Assembly (NCBI RefSeq): GCF_007556815.1
Contig: NZ_CP041743.1
Span: forward strand, 248,001-312,000
Direction of reading: 5' to 3'
Length of the DNA: 64,000 nt
Origin: Paraburkholderia megapolitana
Lineage (GTDB): Bacteria > Pseudomonadota > Gammaproteobacteria > Burkholderiales > Burkholderiaceae
The notes under the pieces were generated by a model. It did no database searches, had not been told where the DNA came from, and was given only the letters and a program-made list of their open reading frames with translations. This document shows positions 1 through 7,769 of this stretch, piece after piece; position 1 is the first letter of the stretch, and the number at the start of each line of letters is the position of its first letter. Made by a program: the position numbers and the translations under genes.

Positions 1-774
1 ACTGGGAACACGGTTGGTTACCAGAGCCGTCATCGCACGCGCTACCGCAGTGGTGTAGCCAAGCGTACGAAAAATCGAGTGGACCCGCGCCTCTGTCACC
101 GAGACAAAGAAATCGGCAAGATCAAGCCGGATGACGAGTTGCTGACCCACGTGAGGTAGCGCGAATGAAACGATGTTTCGCCGCTTGCGGAAGCCATGTG
201 CTGCTTCATGCGGCGGTACGCGATCGAGCAGGCCATGCAGGAGCTTATGCTGTGCCGCGCGCAGCAAAGACTTGGGACGCTCGATCAGGCGATATCGACC
301 GTCGCGTTTCTCACACGCCCGGTACGAATAGTGGTGCAGGGGCGACGAACCTTCGCGGGCGCCGACTCGCCAGCGATTGGCCAGCCATTCGAGATCGGCG
401 GGGCTCAGTTCGAGCCAGTCCGCCAGATCGCCGACTGTCGGCAACTGGGGGACTTCAATCTGCGCGAGGGGTGGCGGCAAGCGCCTCTGAACGGGCGAGC
501 GTCGAAGTATGCGGATGACGGTGAGCCGCTCATCACTCATCCATGCGGAAACGAAACCGGGCAGGTCGGCGACGAAGGGTGCCACCTCATCCGCTTGCGT
601 GTCATCCCAGCGATGGCCGAACCGATCGATTGCACCGCCGGCAGCCTGTCTCAGCCACGGTAGCTCCGCGCCGAGAACCGCTGCAACCCGGGCAGCAGCG
701 CTGTCCTTGTCGGGCTCTCCCGCCAGCATGGCTTCCGCGATCGCGATGACGGTTTGATGCAGGGTTAATTGCAT
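1..774 (-). CDS. Retron-like reverse transcriptase (RNA-directed DNA polymerase), N-terminal 258 residues; 3' end off the window
   Basis: The frame is open from an ATG at 774 to the left edge, giving 258 codons. An in-frame stop at 796-798 bounds the start; I see no strong ribosome site. An N-terminal helical extension (about 1-145) contains a short GDLADWLELS segment (115-124) that suits this RT group. The RT fold follows: RLIERPK (162-168), AHGFRKRRN (192-200), ALPH (205-208, at the position of the retron NAxxH signature), then LDLADFF (217-223), where Asp218 is the expected first metal ligand. The YxDD box and VTG region lie off the window, so catalytic competence cannot be judged. The family is that of standalone or retron RTs, not group II introns: no maturase or intron boundary is visible. 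Hairpin-rich DNA directly upstream fits a retron. Group II-like, DGR or Abi RTs are less likely. Confidence 0.85.
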   Translation of the reverse strand, partial: MQLTLHQTVIAIAEAMLAGEPDKDSAAARVAAVLGAELPWLRQAAGGAIDRFGHRWDDTQADEVAPFVADLPGFVSAWMSDERLTVIRILRRSPVQRRLPPPLAQIEVPQLPTVGDLADWLELSPADLEWLANRWRVGAREGSSPLHHYSYRACEKRDGRYRLIERPKSLLRAAQHKLLHGLLDRVPPHEAAHGFRKRRNIVSFALPHVGQQLVIRLDLADFFVSVTEARVHSIFRTLGYTTAVARAMTALVTNRVPS

Positions 775-792
775 AAGTGAAGGCGGAGCGAT

Positions 793-984
793 GAATCAAC
801 GCGCTAGTTCTGCGAGAGCAACCTTGCGCAGCGCGCAACTACTGCTCTTGCGACGTAATGCAAACTGGAAATCAGCCACGGGGTAACCCCGTAGTCCAGG
901 AACATCAGTTGCCTGCTCCCGGGGTGTGCTTGACTCACCGCACCGCGCAAGCACAATAGGGTTCGCGGTTGCCGTTGTCAATTC
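793..984 (-). ncRNA. Candidate retron msr-msd RNA upstream of the reverse transcriptase
   Basis: Read on the minus strand, three stem-loops lie in a row just before the RT start. The first is GTGCTTG/CAAGCAC (7 bp; 948-954 with 926-932). The second has outer CTGGA/TCCAG (895-899 with 865-869) enclosing ACGGGG/CCCCGT (887-892 with 878-883). The third is a long one, AGAGCA/TGCTCT (843-848 with 815-820) enclosing TTGCGC/GCGCAA (833-838 with 824-829). Possible flanking a1/a2 repeats are GAAT-TGA-CAACG at 973-984 and CGTTGATTC at 793-801, which pair over 9 bp with a 3-nt bulge. Size, orientation and position match known retrons, where the RNA precedes the RT. No branching guanosine was assigned. 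These stems were found by eye and could be fortuitous in GC-rich DNA. Confidence 0.4.
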
Positions 985-2736: not shown

Positions 2737-5700
2737 TTACCACCCGGTGTAGCTCAGCGAACGCCCCCTCAGCGACACGGTGACGCCTTTCGGTGCCCCC
2801 GACTGAACGTAGGAAACGCCAGACTGTGCCCCAGCGATTACCGTAGCCGAGGACGTGCCTTGAATAGCGCCCTTGGCCGCATAATCCGGAGCAACATTCC
2901 CGGACGATTGCGGCGATGCGCTCTGGTTTGCACCGTTGCTCACGGTGGGCGCCAACGCTGCACCTTGCGGCGCCGATGTCACATACTCGTCGATCCGACC
3001 TGAATTGGTTTTGCGCCCCCAGGCGTTGACCTTTCCTTCACTGGTGATGATGCCTTGCGCCGCGTTAGTCAGACTACCGGACACCGAGACACTACGGCCG
3101 TTAAGCGCTCCCGCATTCGAAACGGAACCCCAGGCATCGAGCCCACCCTTGCTGGCGATCACACCCTGTGCTCCGTTATTCAGATCACCGGACAACGAGA
3201 TACCGTCGGCATTGATCTTCCCGTCATTCGAAGTGGAACCCGAGACATCAAGCCTACCCGCGCTGGTAATCGCGCCCTGTGCCCCGTTTTTCAGACCACC
3301 GGACAACGAGATGCCGTTGGCGTTGATCTTCCCGTCATTCGAGATGAAACCGGAGGCATCAAGCCTGCCCGTGCTGGCAATCACGCCCTGTGCCCCGTTT
3401 TTCAGACCACCGGACAACGAGACGCCATTGGCGTTGATCTTCCCGTCATTCGAGATGGAGCCCGAAGCATCGACCCTGCCCGCGCTGGTAATCGCGCCCT
3501 GTGCGCCGTTTTTCAGACCACCGGACAACGAGATACCGTTGGCGTTGATCTTCCCGTCATTCGAGATGGAGCCCGAAGCATCGACTCTGCCCTTGCTGGC
3601 AATCACGCCCTGTGCTCCGTTATTCAGACCACCGGACACCGAGACACTACCGCCGCTAATCGTCCCCGCATTCGAGACAGAGCCTGAGGCATCGATTCTG
3701 TCGCCGGTGACGGTCCCCTGATTGACGAGACCACCCGACACCGAGACGGAATAGTTGGCCGCGACCTTGCCGGTGACGTTTACGCCGACCCCGGCCGACG
3801 AACCCAGCAGCCGGATCGAATCGGCGTGCAGACTACCGAGCTTCGACACGTCGATCGCGACGTCCGGCCGGTCCGACAGATTGTCGCCGGCATTGTCAGA
3901 CACCGTGGTTACCGTGTTGCCCAGCGTCGTCGTACCCTTGTGCGCCGCGACGTTCAGCGTTGCCGCGCGAACCTCCGCGTTCACCTGCAGGTTGCGTGCG
4001 ATGAGATCCAACTGATTCACCGCCTGGCCGTCGATGCCGTTGCCCTCGACAATGAGCCGGCCATTGTCGGTCTTGAAGCCCCCAGCGCCGCCATCCTTGT
4101 CGAGGACAGTCGTGCCTGCGACGAGCGTCGCGCGGGTCGCGTTGATAAAGCCTGCGCCGTTCGCTGTAATCCCGTTCGGGTTTGCGACGATCAGGTGCGC
4201 CGAACGACCAGCGATCTCGGTCGTGCCGGCCAGCGTCGATGCATTGCCGCCCGTCACTTCGTTCAGGATCACCCTGGCCGCAGTATTGCCGAGTTGCGCG
4301 TTTGCGCCGATCTCCCCACCAAGTCGGGTTTGCGCCGACCAGTTGCTGTTATTCAGAATCAGGCCAGTCGCGCCGACGTTGTAGTCCGTGAATTTGTTGT
4401 GTGAAAGACCGGTGCCGTTCGGCGCCACGATGTTCACGATCGGCACGCCATTTGCCGAGGCACTGATGGTAGGACGACGCGCGGCAGCCGAATCGGCGGT
4501 CAGCGCGGCCTTCGCCTGGATAGACTGGATCGGAAGCACCGGAGCGGAAGGCGCGATCGAAATCGAAGCCACTTCTTCGGTCGGTTCCGGCGATGCCGCA
4601 GTGAGCGACGGCGTTACGCTTTCGCTTACGTCGCTATCGGCGGACGGGCCCGAAATCGAAGCCACATTTTCGGCTGGCTCCGCCGATGCCGCGGTGAACG
4701 ACGGCGTTACGCTTTTACTCGCGTCACTATCGAAGGACGGGCCCGAAATCGAAGCCACATTCTCGGCCGGCTCCGGCGATGCCGGGGCGGACGGCGGTAC
4801 GCTTTCGCTCCCAGCACTATTGAAAGGCACGCTCAAATTCGGACCCGGAACTCCGTTGCGGATGTTCCTCACTACCACGTCTGGTCCCTGACCACCCACG
4901 ATAGTGCCCGCATTCTCGACAGTGCCTTCGACGAAGGTGCTACCAATTATAGGCCGCCCCTCGAAACTGCCAGTCACTGCGTAAGATGGAGCACTAATCG
5001 TCCCTTGATTGACGAGTTCACTCGGCACCATGAGGGAATTTTTCGCAATTACCTTGCCCACAACATTGACACCGACTCCGGCCGACGAACCGACCAACCG
5101 GATCGCATCGGCGTGCAGGCTACCGAGTTGCGACACGTCGATCGCAATTTCCGGTCGTTGAGTCTTCGAATCACGGACCAGTGAGCTGGCTAACCGGGTG
5201 GCTTCCTCGAACCGCACCTCACCTTCACCCGCCTCGAGATTCAGCCCTATCGCGCGAATCTCCGCGTTCACCTGCAAGCTGCGGGCAATGAGATCCAACT
5301 CTTGAGCCCCACTGCCGTCGATCCCGCTGCCCTCGACAAGCAGGCGACCATTGTCCGTTCTGAAAGAGACATTCCCATCCTCGCCGAGAACCGGATGACC
5401 CGCGACGAGTGTTGCCCGGGTCGCGTTGACGAACCCGACGCCATCGGCCGTAATGCCGTTCGGATTCGCCACGATCAGGTGTGCTGCCTGGCCAGCAATC
5501 TCCGTGGTACCGCCCAGCCTCGACGCGTTGCTGCCCGTCACTTCGTTCAGGATCACTCGGGCGGGCGCGCCGCCGAGTTGCGCGTTGCCGCTAACCAACC
5601 CGCCAAGCTGGGTTTGCACGGACGTGTTGCTGTTGTTCAGGATCAGGCCGGCAGCACCGACGTTATAGTCCGTGAACTTGTTGTGCGATACGCCGGCGCC

Positions 5701-5910
5701 GTTCGGCGCGACGATATCGATGATCGGCACGCCATTCGCAGCAGCGCCGATAGCAGCTTGATTCACCGCGGCCGGATCGACCGACAGGGCGGTCTGGGCA
5801 TGGATCGCCTGAATCGAAAGCAACGGCATCACGATCGCCATTTTCGCAATCAACTTGGTATGCGAAATTACGGTGTTGCCAGGACTTTGTTGTTTGGTTA
5901 CGAGTTTCAT
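2737..5910 (-). CDS. Two-partner secretion exoprotein (filamentous haemagglutinin-like TpsA) with tandem TPS domains
   Basis: A 1057-residue exoprotein exported to the cell surface through the TpsB partner encoded just upstream. The start is the ATG at 5910; an upstream TTG would add 17 residues but looks less natural. A long signal peptide ends near residue 38 (IHA/QTAL). The first TPS domain (about 38-290) has NPNG at 149-152. A Ser/Pro-rich linker (about 365-455) has three imperfect repeats of about 30 residues. A second TPS domain (about 465-725) follows, with NPNG at 577-580 and the same SHNKFTDYNVG signature. Next come about six copies of a 37-residue repeat and a short unique C-terminus. 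No VENN motif, pretoxin region or toxin domain is present, so an adhesin or biofilm role is more likely than contact-dependent inhibition. The doubled TPS domain is unusual; see findings. Confidence 0.92.
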   Translation of the reverse strand: MKLVTKQQSPGNTVISHTKLIAKMAIVMPLLSIQAIHAQTALSVDPAAVNQAAIGAAANGVPIIDIVAPNGAGVSHNKFTDYNVGAAGLILNNSNTSVQTQLGGLVSGNAQLGGAPARVILNEVTGSNASRLGGTTEIAGQAAHLIVANPNGITADGVGFVNATRATLVAGHPVLGEDGNVSFRTDNGRLLVEGSGIDGSGAQELDLIARSLQVNAEIRAIGLNLEAGEGEVRFEEATRLASSLVRDSKTQRPEIAIDVSQLGSLHADAIRLVGSSAGVGVNVVGKVIAKNSLMVPSELVNQGTISAPSYAVTGSFEGRPIIGSTFVEGTVENAGTIVGGQGPDVVVRNIRNGVPGPNLSVPFNSAGSESVPPSAPASPEPAENVASISGPSFDSDASKSVTPSFTAASAEPAENVASISGPSADSDVSESVTPSLTAASPEPTEEVASISIAPSAPVLPIQSIQAKAALTADSAAARRPTISASANGVPIVNIVAPNGTGLSHNKFTDYNVGATGLILNNSNWSAQTRLGGEIGANAQLGNTAARVILNEVTGGNASTLAGTTEIAGRSAHLIVANPNGITANGAGFINATRATLVAGTTVLDKDGGAGGFKTDNGRLIVEGNGIDGQAVNQLDLIARNLQVNAEVRAATLNVAAHKGTTTLGNTVTTVSDNAGDNLSDRPDVAIDVSKLGSLHADSIRLLGSSAGVGVNVTGKVAANYSVSVSGGLVNQGTVTGDRIDASGSVSNAGTISGGSVSVSGGLNNGAQGVIASKGRVDASGSISNDGKINANGISLSGGLKNGAQGAITSAGRVDASGSISNDGKINANGVSLSGGLKNGAQGVIASTGRLDASGFISNDGKINANGISLSGGLKNGAQGAITSAGRLDVSGSTSNDGKINADGISLSGDLNNGAQGVIASKGGLDAWGSVSNAGALNGRSVSVSGSLTNAAQGIITSEGKVNAWGRKTNSGRIDEYVTSAPQGAALAPTVSNGANQSASPQSSGNVAPDYAAKGAIQGTSSATVIAGAQSGVSYVQSGAPKGVTVSLRGRSLSYTGW
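3031..3695 (-). repeat. 111-bp tandem repeats encoding 37-residue TpsA repeats
   Basis: About six in-frame copies of a 111-bp unit. The four central ones are nearly identical, with the same core (ccgtcatt on the plus strand) at 3221, 3332, 3443 and 3554, exactly 111 bp apart. The unit encodes a motif rich in SNDGKINANG and LKNGAQG, typical of a right-handed beta-helix. The outer copies have diverged. Confidence 0.8.
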
Positions 5911-6077
5911 ATTTTTCCCGATTCTTGTGTGGAAATGGACTTTCGGCGTCAACCGCCTCAACTGACGTGAGCATCCAGAATCATCTGTGTCATCACGCTA
6001 TATATGACCTCCCTGATTAAAGTGAATGAATAGGTCGTAGCCACTCGAAGCACATCCATCGATACGACGAGCCGGGC

Positions 6078-7769
6078 TCAGAACCGGTAAGTCATCCGGA
6101 CATTCAGTGACGGCGTTCCGGTCTGGATGGTGTCCGGCCGCAGCAGTGGCATACCCACAGAAACGTCATAGCCGAGCCCCCTGTAACTGCCGCGGATGCC
6201 AAGCGCGCTGCCGATCAACGTGCGCCCGCGCGCCGTTGCGGGATCGCCCGATACCTGCCCTGCATCGAGCGCGACATAGGTTTCGCTTCCCGCGAACAGG
6301 CCCGTTGCGAGTTCGTTGCGCCACGTCCATCCGTTTTGCACCGCGAGGGACTGGTTGCCGTCAGAACCGCGCACCGAGTAGCGCCCGCCGATCTGCAGGT
6401 ATTCCGTGAATGGAGTGGGCTGAAGTGCGTGCTGGAGAAAGAACGTGCCGCGATAGCCGAATGCCCGTGAGTCGATCCGGAACGGCACGTTCAGTGATGT
6501 GCTCGTAGTAAGAATCTGGTAGCGACCGCTCCAGTTCGACTGCCCGTAGACGAAACCGGGGGTGCGACTCAGTCCGGCCAGGCTGCCGCGCAATCCAATC
6601 GCGGCATGTAACGACGCGTCCGAGAACATTTCCAGGTGGCTCGCGCGGATCTCATAGCTGGTGATATCGCGCTTTTGCACGCCGATTTCTTCGCCACCCA
6701 GCGAGGCCTGGTCCTGTCGACGCACCAGGTTGAACTGGAGCGAGCCCTTGTTGTGACTTGTGCGGTAGGGGACATAAGTCACGCCCGCCTCGAAGCGGCG
6801 GGTTCGCGAGGTGTACAGGATGTCCGCGCCGACAACCGGCAAAGCCTGTTTCGACGACCACTCGCTAAAGCCCAGCGAAAACGACGCATACCCGATCGGC
6901 ACATTCCACGCGATGCTCTTCGAACGTGACCCGGCGCTGTGATTGCGAAGCCCGGCGTCGTTGTTGACGGTGGCGATCAGCTGGTCGTAAAGATGGAGCG
7001 GTGAATCGATTGCAACGATCGCGCCCAACTGGTTGCGGCCGGTCGCATGGATGCCGGAGTTGTCCGCGGTGAGCACGAATCGCACTCGTCGCCTGTTTTG
7101 CGGGTGCCGGATGACGATGTCGGATTCGCCGAGGTCCGTGCCCGGCACAAGATCGAATGCCGTAACGCCCTGCCCCGGCAACCTGCGAATGTTTTCGAGC
7201 GCCTGGTCCAGATCGCGGATATTCAGCAGCGCGTGAGACCGCTCGGGAAAAACCATGCGCGACCAGCCGATGCTGGCGCCCTCGTCGCGGATCGTACCGA
7301 CGCGACCTGGAACGATCTCGATGACCAGATGGCCGGTTGCAAAGTCCTGTTCCGGAAAGAAAACCTGCGTCGTGATATAGCCGTCTGCAATCAGCTGACG
7401 CGCGATCCATTGGCTCAAGATGTCGCGACCCTGCGCGCCCATGCACGTGCCTTCGATTGGTACTCGCCCGGGTAACCACGGAAAGTGTTCGGCCCCACGC
7501 CATTCGACTTCCGCGATGGCGAAACATGGCGCTTCAATGGGGAAATCAGGAAGTTCCGAGTTTTGCCGTACGACTGGCGTGAGAACCTCAGGAGGAGCAA
7601 GCGCTTGCTCCTTGACGCCCTGAAGTTGCTGCTCCTGATAGCGAAGTGTGTCCTGAGACGGGAGGTGATTCGGGCGCTCTGTTTGCGCATTGGCATCCGA
7701 AGCGACCGCAAGAATCCATGCAACACCTGCTGCACATACGGGATATCTGGTTTTTTTCAATATATGCAC
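6078..7769 (-). CDS. TpsB outer-membrane transporter (ShlB/FhaC/HecB family)
   Basis: A 563-residue Omp85-superfamily pore that secretes and activates the TpsA protein. It has an N-terminal signal peptide (cleavage near the ANA at about 26-28), a Gln/Pro-rich periplasmic start, a POTRA_2 domain around 75-155 and a C-terminal beta-barrel ending in aromatic Phe. The VRG motif of the L6 hairpin is at 466-468, as in FhaC. The start is a GTG at 7769 with a weak ribosome site; a TTG three codons later is an alternative. tpsA follows after 167 bp on the same strand, giving the usual B-A operon order. An orphan terminator about 200 bp upstream may influence its leader. Confidence 0.93.
   Translation of the reverse strand: MHILKKTRYPVCAAGVAWILAVASDANAQTERPNHLPSQDTLRYQEQQLQGVKEQALAPPEVLTPVVRQNSELPDFPIEAPCFAIAEVEWRGAEHFPWLPGRVPIEGTCMGAQGRDILSQWIARQLIADGYITTQVFFPEQDFATGHLVIEIVPGRVGTIRDEGASIGWSRMVFPERSHALLNIRDLDQALENIRRLPGQGVTAFDLVPGTDLGESDIVIRHPQNRRRVRFVLTADNSGIHATGRNQLGAIVAIDSPLHLYDQLIATVNNDAGLRNHSAGSRSKSIAWNVPIGYASFSLGFSEWSSKQALPVVGADILYTSRTRRFEAGVTYVPYRTSHNKGSLQFNLVRRQDQASLGGEEIGVQKRDITSYEIRASHLEMFSDASLHAAIGLRGSLAGLSRTPGFVYGQSNWSGRYQILTTSTSLNVPFRIDSRAFGYRGTFFLQHALQPTPFTEYLQIGGRYSVRGSDGNQSLAVQNGWTWRNELATGLFAGSETYVALDAGQVSGDPATARGRTLIGSALGIRGSYRGLGYDVSVGMPLLRPDTIQTGTPSLNVRMTYRF

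Follow-up and report, generated by a model that had tools for sequence, protein, structure and literature searches.

A conserved RNA and reverse transcriptase pair in Paraburkholderia megapolitana: a probable two-part retron without a common partner gene

Retrons are typically formed by a reverse transcriptase (RT), an RNA and a toxic effector (PMC12548924). In described retrons, the RNA is encoded 5' of the RT gene on the same strand and its ends, a1 and a2, are complementary over about 8–30 bases; the priming guanosine is found at the inner end of a1 or immediately within it, in a TAGC, CAGC, GAGC or a similar context, and the msr part folds into one to three hairpins of about 7–10 bp that are followed by a single msd hairpin. 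The element described here is located at the left end of a stretch of 64,000 nucleotides from Paraburkholderia megapolitana (the window, G000:C1:248001-312000, contig NZ_CP041743.1), whose genome comprises 7.63 Mb in three contigs. A first-pass annotation of the window had proposed a retron, given an incomplete RT gene preceded by stem-loops, and both the RT and the RNA bear out this identity. Judged by the predicted RT fold and RNA structure, the element is almost certainly a retron; it is probably a two-part one, formed by a folded RNA and an RT with no common partner gene, in which the RNA-DNA-RT particle would act without a linked effector. All the features of the element are on the minus strand, and plain positions are those of the window.

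The predicted transcript, a retron-type non-coding RNA (msr-msd), extends from 946 to 783, as supported by a covariance model, by its fold and by covariation. Sixty-six upstream regions were collected from Burkholderiaceae, of which 58 were distinct, and 57 were still distinct once trimmed. In the 58 regions a conserved block runs from TTGACA to the RT start. TTGACA, present in 58/58, corresponds to the -35 element (976..981), and it is followed after 17 nt by the -10 element TATTGT (953..958), which has the form TAnnnT in 58/58 with a spacing of 17 (8 regions) or 18 nt (50 regions); the predicted promoter motif is of the sigma-70 type. The covariance model R1, built from the 57 regions, matches the window at 948-783 with 161.4 bits. 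The 164-nt RNA folds at -75.8 kcal/mol, against a mean of -58.3 (sd 4.1) for 200 dinucleotide shuffles, none of which reached as low a value (z -4.2); the stem-loops and the bulged a1/a2 pairing that had been pointed out in the first-pass annotation were recovered in this fold.

The RNAalifold consensus of the 57 rows contains 36 pairs, and 99.0% of the 2051 cells of these pairs are paired, versus 93.5% after shuffling. Two-sided changes affect 13 pairs and 103 cells, versus 6.4 and 26.4 in shuffled alignments (0/500 shuffles as high), and when the partners are slid by 1–3 columns the pairing falls to 38–44%. The pairs with two-sided changes are distributed along the structure: four in the a1/a2 stem, two in the 8-bp msr hairpin, and four and three in the halves of the msd hairpin. 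The terminal stem is bulged and has 15 pairs, with 98.9% of the cells paired, between the a1 arm at 930..946 (columns 3-19 of alignment A2) and the a2 arm at 783..799 (columns 157-173). At the inner end of a1, the motif CAAGC is invariant in 57/57 and contains the candidate priming guanosine at 929, a role predicted from other retrons. The second msr hairpin (876..894), with 8 bp, a 3-nt loop and a near-fixed sequence, shows 100% of its cells paired and is kept in distant loci. The msd hairpin (812..851) has 7 + 6 pairs with 98.0% and 99.1% of the cells paired, and seven of these pairs show two-sided changes. The first msr hairpin (896..922), of nine pairs, was obtained from the fold and is weaker, since it is absent from the RNAalifold consensus and its pairing is 79.0% versus 76.1% shuffled, yet it covaries, with 22 two-sided cells versus 10.8. 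The region thus presents a same-strand 5' RNA with paired ends, a guanosine in the expected context (by sequence only), msr hairpins and one msd hairpin of 13 consensus pairs. As a separate observation, no obvious Shine-Dalgarno sequence was seen by eye between a2 and the RT start (775-799), and the ATG is 8 nt past the a2 arm.

In the window, no Rfam family reached its gathering score. The radC RNA (RF01754) was considered and rejected: it scored 18.3 bits in the window against a gathering score of 40 bits, it gave no match at E <= 10 in the loci of 12 relatives, and eight chance-level matches of 14.1–19.7 bits were found elsewhere in the same genome.

The RT gene starts at 774, and the first 258 of its 454 residues are encoded within the window (1..774); the remainder lies past the edge, down to G000:C1:247410, and the full gene was read from stretch L003. 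The half inside the window carries the motifs LDLADFF and ALPH, as had been noticed in the first-pass annotation. Leftward of the edge, TRYADDLAFS and LAGVVVN follow, so that the anticipated YxDD motif is there as YADD, while the expected VTG is replaced by LAG and no effector gene appears. RVT_1 is the sole Pfam domain of the protein (4.3e-18). Among the PADLOC models the best is RT_other (PDLC02949; 458.6 bits, residues 6-447), followed by RT_outgroup (PDLC03740, described as 'retron'; 433 bits, residues 13-442), and both matches take in the N-terminal part of the RT; RT_XIII comes third (304 bits, residues 103-438), and the remaining typed models give <=227 bits. The matches to the NCBIfam retron families are all under their cut-offs. 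The source names of the homologues, among the 120 matches listed (many of them nameless, and the long names shortened), read 'reverse transcriptase', 'reverse transcriptase family protein', 'RNA-directed DNA polymerase' or 'hypothetical protein', and 'retron' is in none of the names shown; 28 of these 120 were used for alignment A1. The closest relative in the search is G001, with an RT 89% identical.

Two motifs are the one discord with a retron identity, and they weigh against it. According to PMC6868368, region X is usually NAXXH (14/16 validated retrons, the two exceptions being N-substituted as well), and region Y opens with VTG in 14/16, each of the two exceptions differing at one position. 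In an alignment of 80 RTs, the catalytic motif is well kept (YADD 77/80, YVDD 3/80); on the other hand, region X, which here reads FALPH (of the form FAxPH), has drifted, with A..H kept in 68/80 and N in 4/80, and so has region Y, with LAG in 55/80 and VTG in 7/80. The LAG of the present RT differs from VTG at two positions, versus one in each validated exception. These deviations, and RVT_1 being the only Pfam domain, could be accommodated if the protein were not a retron RT but that of a group II intron, of a diversity-generating retroelement (DGR) or of some other kind, with an unrelated conserved leader. We regard this as very improbable: the group II maturase model TIGR04416 scores 33.8 bits where its cut-off is 300, retron RTs fill the first 14 rows of the structural comparison table (although another retron RT ranks under group II and DGR RTs), and the RNA has the layout of a retron and co-varies. 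The maturase context that could have appeared past the edge was not found there either, the genes being ordinary ones with no intron maturase; no search aimed at DGR repeats was made. Apart from this RT, the genome has a single RVT_1 match (L004, G000:C2:4185-5065), which looks by eye like a fragment of a group II-intron-type RT, next to a transposase-like open reading frame (ORF).

The RNA accompanies the RT far beyond Burkholderiaceae. Besides the window, R1 was run on 66 of 69 distant RT loci (L016-L084), whose RTs are 41–55% identical over the best segment; L029 and L048, too near the contig start, and L022, by choice, were excluded. According to the record titles, these loci belong to Planctomycetota, Acidobacteria, Verrucomicrobia, Myxococcota, Actinobacteria and Alpha-, Beta- and Gammaproteobacteria, and many come from metagenomes. 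A full-length match was found directly upstream of the RT in 65/66, 58 of them at E < 0.001 and seven at 0.0015–0.068; the exception is L052, where the contig end cuts the RNA (E 0.31). All the remaining matches in the 790 kb of these loci have E >= 0.19. In the 64 loci where a start codon was found, it is placed at -16 to +268 nt from the 3' end of the RNA, the lower bound being built in by taking the first start codon from 20 nt before that end. In the 58 of the 65 matches that were aligned (alignment A6, which excludes L073 and L075-L080), 96.7% of the cells are paired, 32/36 pairs show two-sided changes and 435 cells are two-sided versus 93.6 shuffled, figures that are biased to the model by which the rows were aligned. 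The G that follows a1 is nearly fixed, as is part of the GGGG/CCCC hairpin. The structure is kept, with compensatory changes, in near and in distant relatives, and the predicted RNA and the RT are conserved jointly over at least six phyla. In contrast, R1 gave nothing at E 1 or better in 80 viral-contig loci (919 kb) with more distant RTs.

To our knowledge, known retrons have their effector gene next to that of the RT or joined to it as a fusion. In the first-pass annotation the effector was supposed to be fused, to lie off the left edge, or to be the gene upstream. A C-terminal fusion is excluded, given that the protein ends at residue 454 and the RT core is aligned to about residue 445; an effector at the N-terminus may still hold and is discussed below. 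Past the left edge, the RT gene is followed by a convergent gene, named by eye as NnrU-like. Upstream there is a beta-lactamase-fold serine hydrolase, adjacent and on the same strand, with its stop codon 1 nt from the -35 element, a position that could suggest a role as the effector. However, the hydrolase gene is present in 30/144 genomes of the genus (E <= 1e-80) and adjoins the RT only in the window genome and in G001, and it belongs to no cluster common to other RT loci; this independent distribution contradicts the proposal, which we consider extremely improbable.

Other neighbours were also inspected. Among the 25 largest clusters of neighbour ORFs from 81 loci, none found beside the RT spans the phyla; these clusters include ABC ATPases of scattered position (12 loci), an AraC-type gene found in 6 loci, of which four belong to Burkholderiaceae (with an opposite-strand shadow in 5), a 440–502-aa protein at varied places (5 planctomycete loci), and synteny groups inside Burkholderia and Paraburkholderia. 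In six planctomycete loci (L061, L063, L066, L071, L078 and L084), in which the RT has an MGLF-type N-terminus, a putative membrane protein of 189–294 aa (two scans) with two or three hydrophobic segments is encoded just after the RT and in the same orientation; this may reflect a partner confined to that lineage or simply synteny. When the longest ORF immediately flanking the unit on each side was taken from the same strand by mechanical calls, 61/63 distant loci gave an ORF of >=80 aa (L039, in which no start codon was found, and L060, with a short ORF, were left out). Among the resulting 108 ORFs any one Pfam family occurs in <=2, and there are single matches to six PADLOC families, none of which is a retron effector judged by name. 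Within Burkholderiaceae, 52 loci were arranged by hand in 11 site groups, although L235 and L243, assigned to different groups, have downstream genes in common, so that L235 may not be a separate site, and some genomes were taken twice (at least L005/L224, L006/L231, L008/L260, L010/L253 and L015/L241); a tblastx comparison of 1.5 kb on each side gave a single weak between-group match on either side, of 37 aa downstream and of 34 aa upstream, and no common gene. This lineage very probably has no linked partner. Since, the N-terminal domain of the RT aside, no gene common to the loci examined could stand for the adjacent or fused effector of tripartite retrons, no named retron type was assigned.

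An anti-phage retron of the tripartite kind could still be at work if its effector gene were elsewhere in the genome and recruited in trans. The usual composition of retrons (PMC12548924) would favour this, and a docking surface might evolve as the N-terminal part of the RT does, outpacing the core in 9/9 pairs; we find it rather unlikely, as the loci examined show no linked partner whereas the effectors we know of adjoin the RT or are fused to it.

The unit itself appears to be compact. In a pair of sites with (L371) and without it (L364), blastn homology ends at L371 position 4976 and is back by 6853, or near 6689 in a finer alignment, and the stretch in between holds only the -35 element (5039), the RNA and the RT, whose stop codon is at 6602 and after which ~250 nt at most are left; in L364 the unit was either lost or never gained. 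Decayed copies of the RT were found, L362 (G403) with a large internal deletion that leaves only remnants, and L192 (G065) and L194 (G121) with shifted frames; these point to ongoing loss of the retron in some species. The RT is present in 44/65 genomes of the searched Burkholderia set, and in 34 of these 44 it is near the same MFS (major facilitator superfamily) gene, at 2.2–2.5 kb in 32 and at about 10 kb in two. In its own genus it is present in 34/144 genomes, fragments included. Among plasmid records there were six matches at E <= 1e-30, and three of these lie in Burkholderia replicons of 0.9–1.3 Mb; the 50,697 phage records gave two distant matches, and the best 80 relatives in viral contigs have RTs only 24–38% identical.

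Retention at a single site would also agree with a domesticated role. A domesticated retron, largely inherited vertically, would produce a multicopy single-stranded DNA (msDNA) with a housekeeping or regulatory role, as may hold for the myxobacterial retrons, for which vertical inheritance has been described (PMC6868368). The shared MFS site, the purifying selection on the RT and the remoteness of the viral relatives all point in that direction; against it stand the patchy distribution in both genera, the use of several different sites, the decayed copies and the defence genes that border some copies, and we judge it possible but improbable. The defence genes in question are Wadjet jetA/C/D (L233), jetB (L235), a type I restriction gene (L236) and PDC-S02 (L234); they come from seven proteins hand-picked as defence-like, and six matching of seven is not a rate.

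The proposed two-part retron could work as follows. Transcription would start at the a1 end, and the a1 and a2 arms would close the terminal stem. The RT would recognise the msr hairpin of 8 bp and 3-nt loop and would prime on the 2'-OH of G929. Copying would begin at the base of a2 (about position 800), take in the msd hairpin and end at roughly 852-860, and the predicted product is a DNA of about 53–61 nt. The N-terminal helical domain of the RT might provide the output, either by being an effector itself or by offering a host protein a surface on which to dock, and the role would be phage defence; these are the weakest steps of the scheme. Phage defence is likely by analogy with other retrons. 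The N-terminal extension comprises residues 1-111 (442..774), with five helices at residues 5-79 in the structural model. The dN/dS ratio (non-synonymous to synonymous substitution rates) of the whole RT is 0.07–0.33 in nine pairs (ten were run, one without a value), and that of the N-terminal part is 0.10–0.63 versus 0.07–0.25 in the core, the former being higher in 9/9 pairs. Because this extra part evolves faster than the core, it was guessed to be the output domain, a tentative assignment that we would not yet favour. A broader and more speculative proposal, which we hold to be doubtful, is that the class works over at least six phyla as an RNA and one protein, in which the N-terminal helical domain of ~100 aa would act as the effector once interference of a phage with the msDNA had exposed it, and a toxin gene of its own would be superfluous.

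Two other features were observed. In the window, positions 2737-5961 of the minus strand encode a 1074-aa exoprotein, apparently of the two-partner-secretion type, seemingly with two tandem N-terminal secretion domains and near-identical repeats (by eye); its motif GVPI..IVAPNG.G.SHNKFTDYNVG..GLILNNSN occurs twice, and its neighbour at 6078-7769 (minus strand) is presumably its outer-membrane transporter. Near a Burkholderiaceae RT locus, a fluoride riboswitch scored over its gathering threshold (L221:4056-4158, plus strand).

A class that is found from Planctomycetota to Actinomycetota and keeps an RNA and an RT under selection shows no common partner. If the RT carries its own output domain, this would represent a minimal retron layout; otherwise, the msDNA would have a role apart from the known effectors. 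The RNA boundaries, the candidate priming guanosine, the covariance model and the presence/absence site make both readings testable, and the compact pairs of RNA and RT that are native to Burkholderiaceae and Planctomycetota are also candidate tools for the production of single-stranded DNA in these groups.

PADLOC already contains the RT clade, and so the kind is known; its best models, RT_other and RT_outgroup, cover only the protein and name no type or effector. A literature search, whose scope left most subscription papers outside, returned no description of this RNA, its spread or the missing partner. Among the typed retrons, RT_XIII likewise has a profile in which about 105 positions precede the matched core, but its score is about 155 bits under that of RT_other. 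Type XIII retrons have a partner gene, and no common one was found here. Retron Ec86 (Eco1) is 26% identical over the aligned part, with model residues 1-91 unmatched, and it works with an effector (title of 7v9x). The myxobacterial retrons Mx162 and Sa163 are vertically inherited (PMC6868368) and have CAGC around the priming guanosine, close to the CAAGC of the present RNA, but the msd of Mx162 has 162 nt versus the about 53–61 nt predicted here, and the only Myxococcus-named locus fetched (L057, RT 44% identical) was matched by R1 at just E 0.068. Retron-Bth1 is likewise reported to be unclassified and to have no obvious effector; unlike the element described here, it is carried on a mobile element and its RT gene holds a group II intron (PMC12548924).
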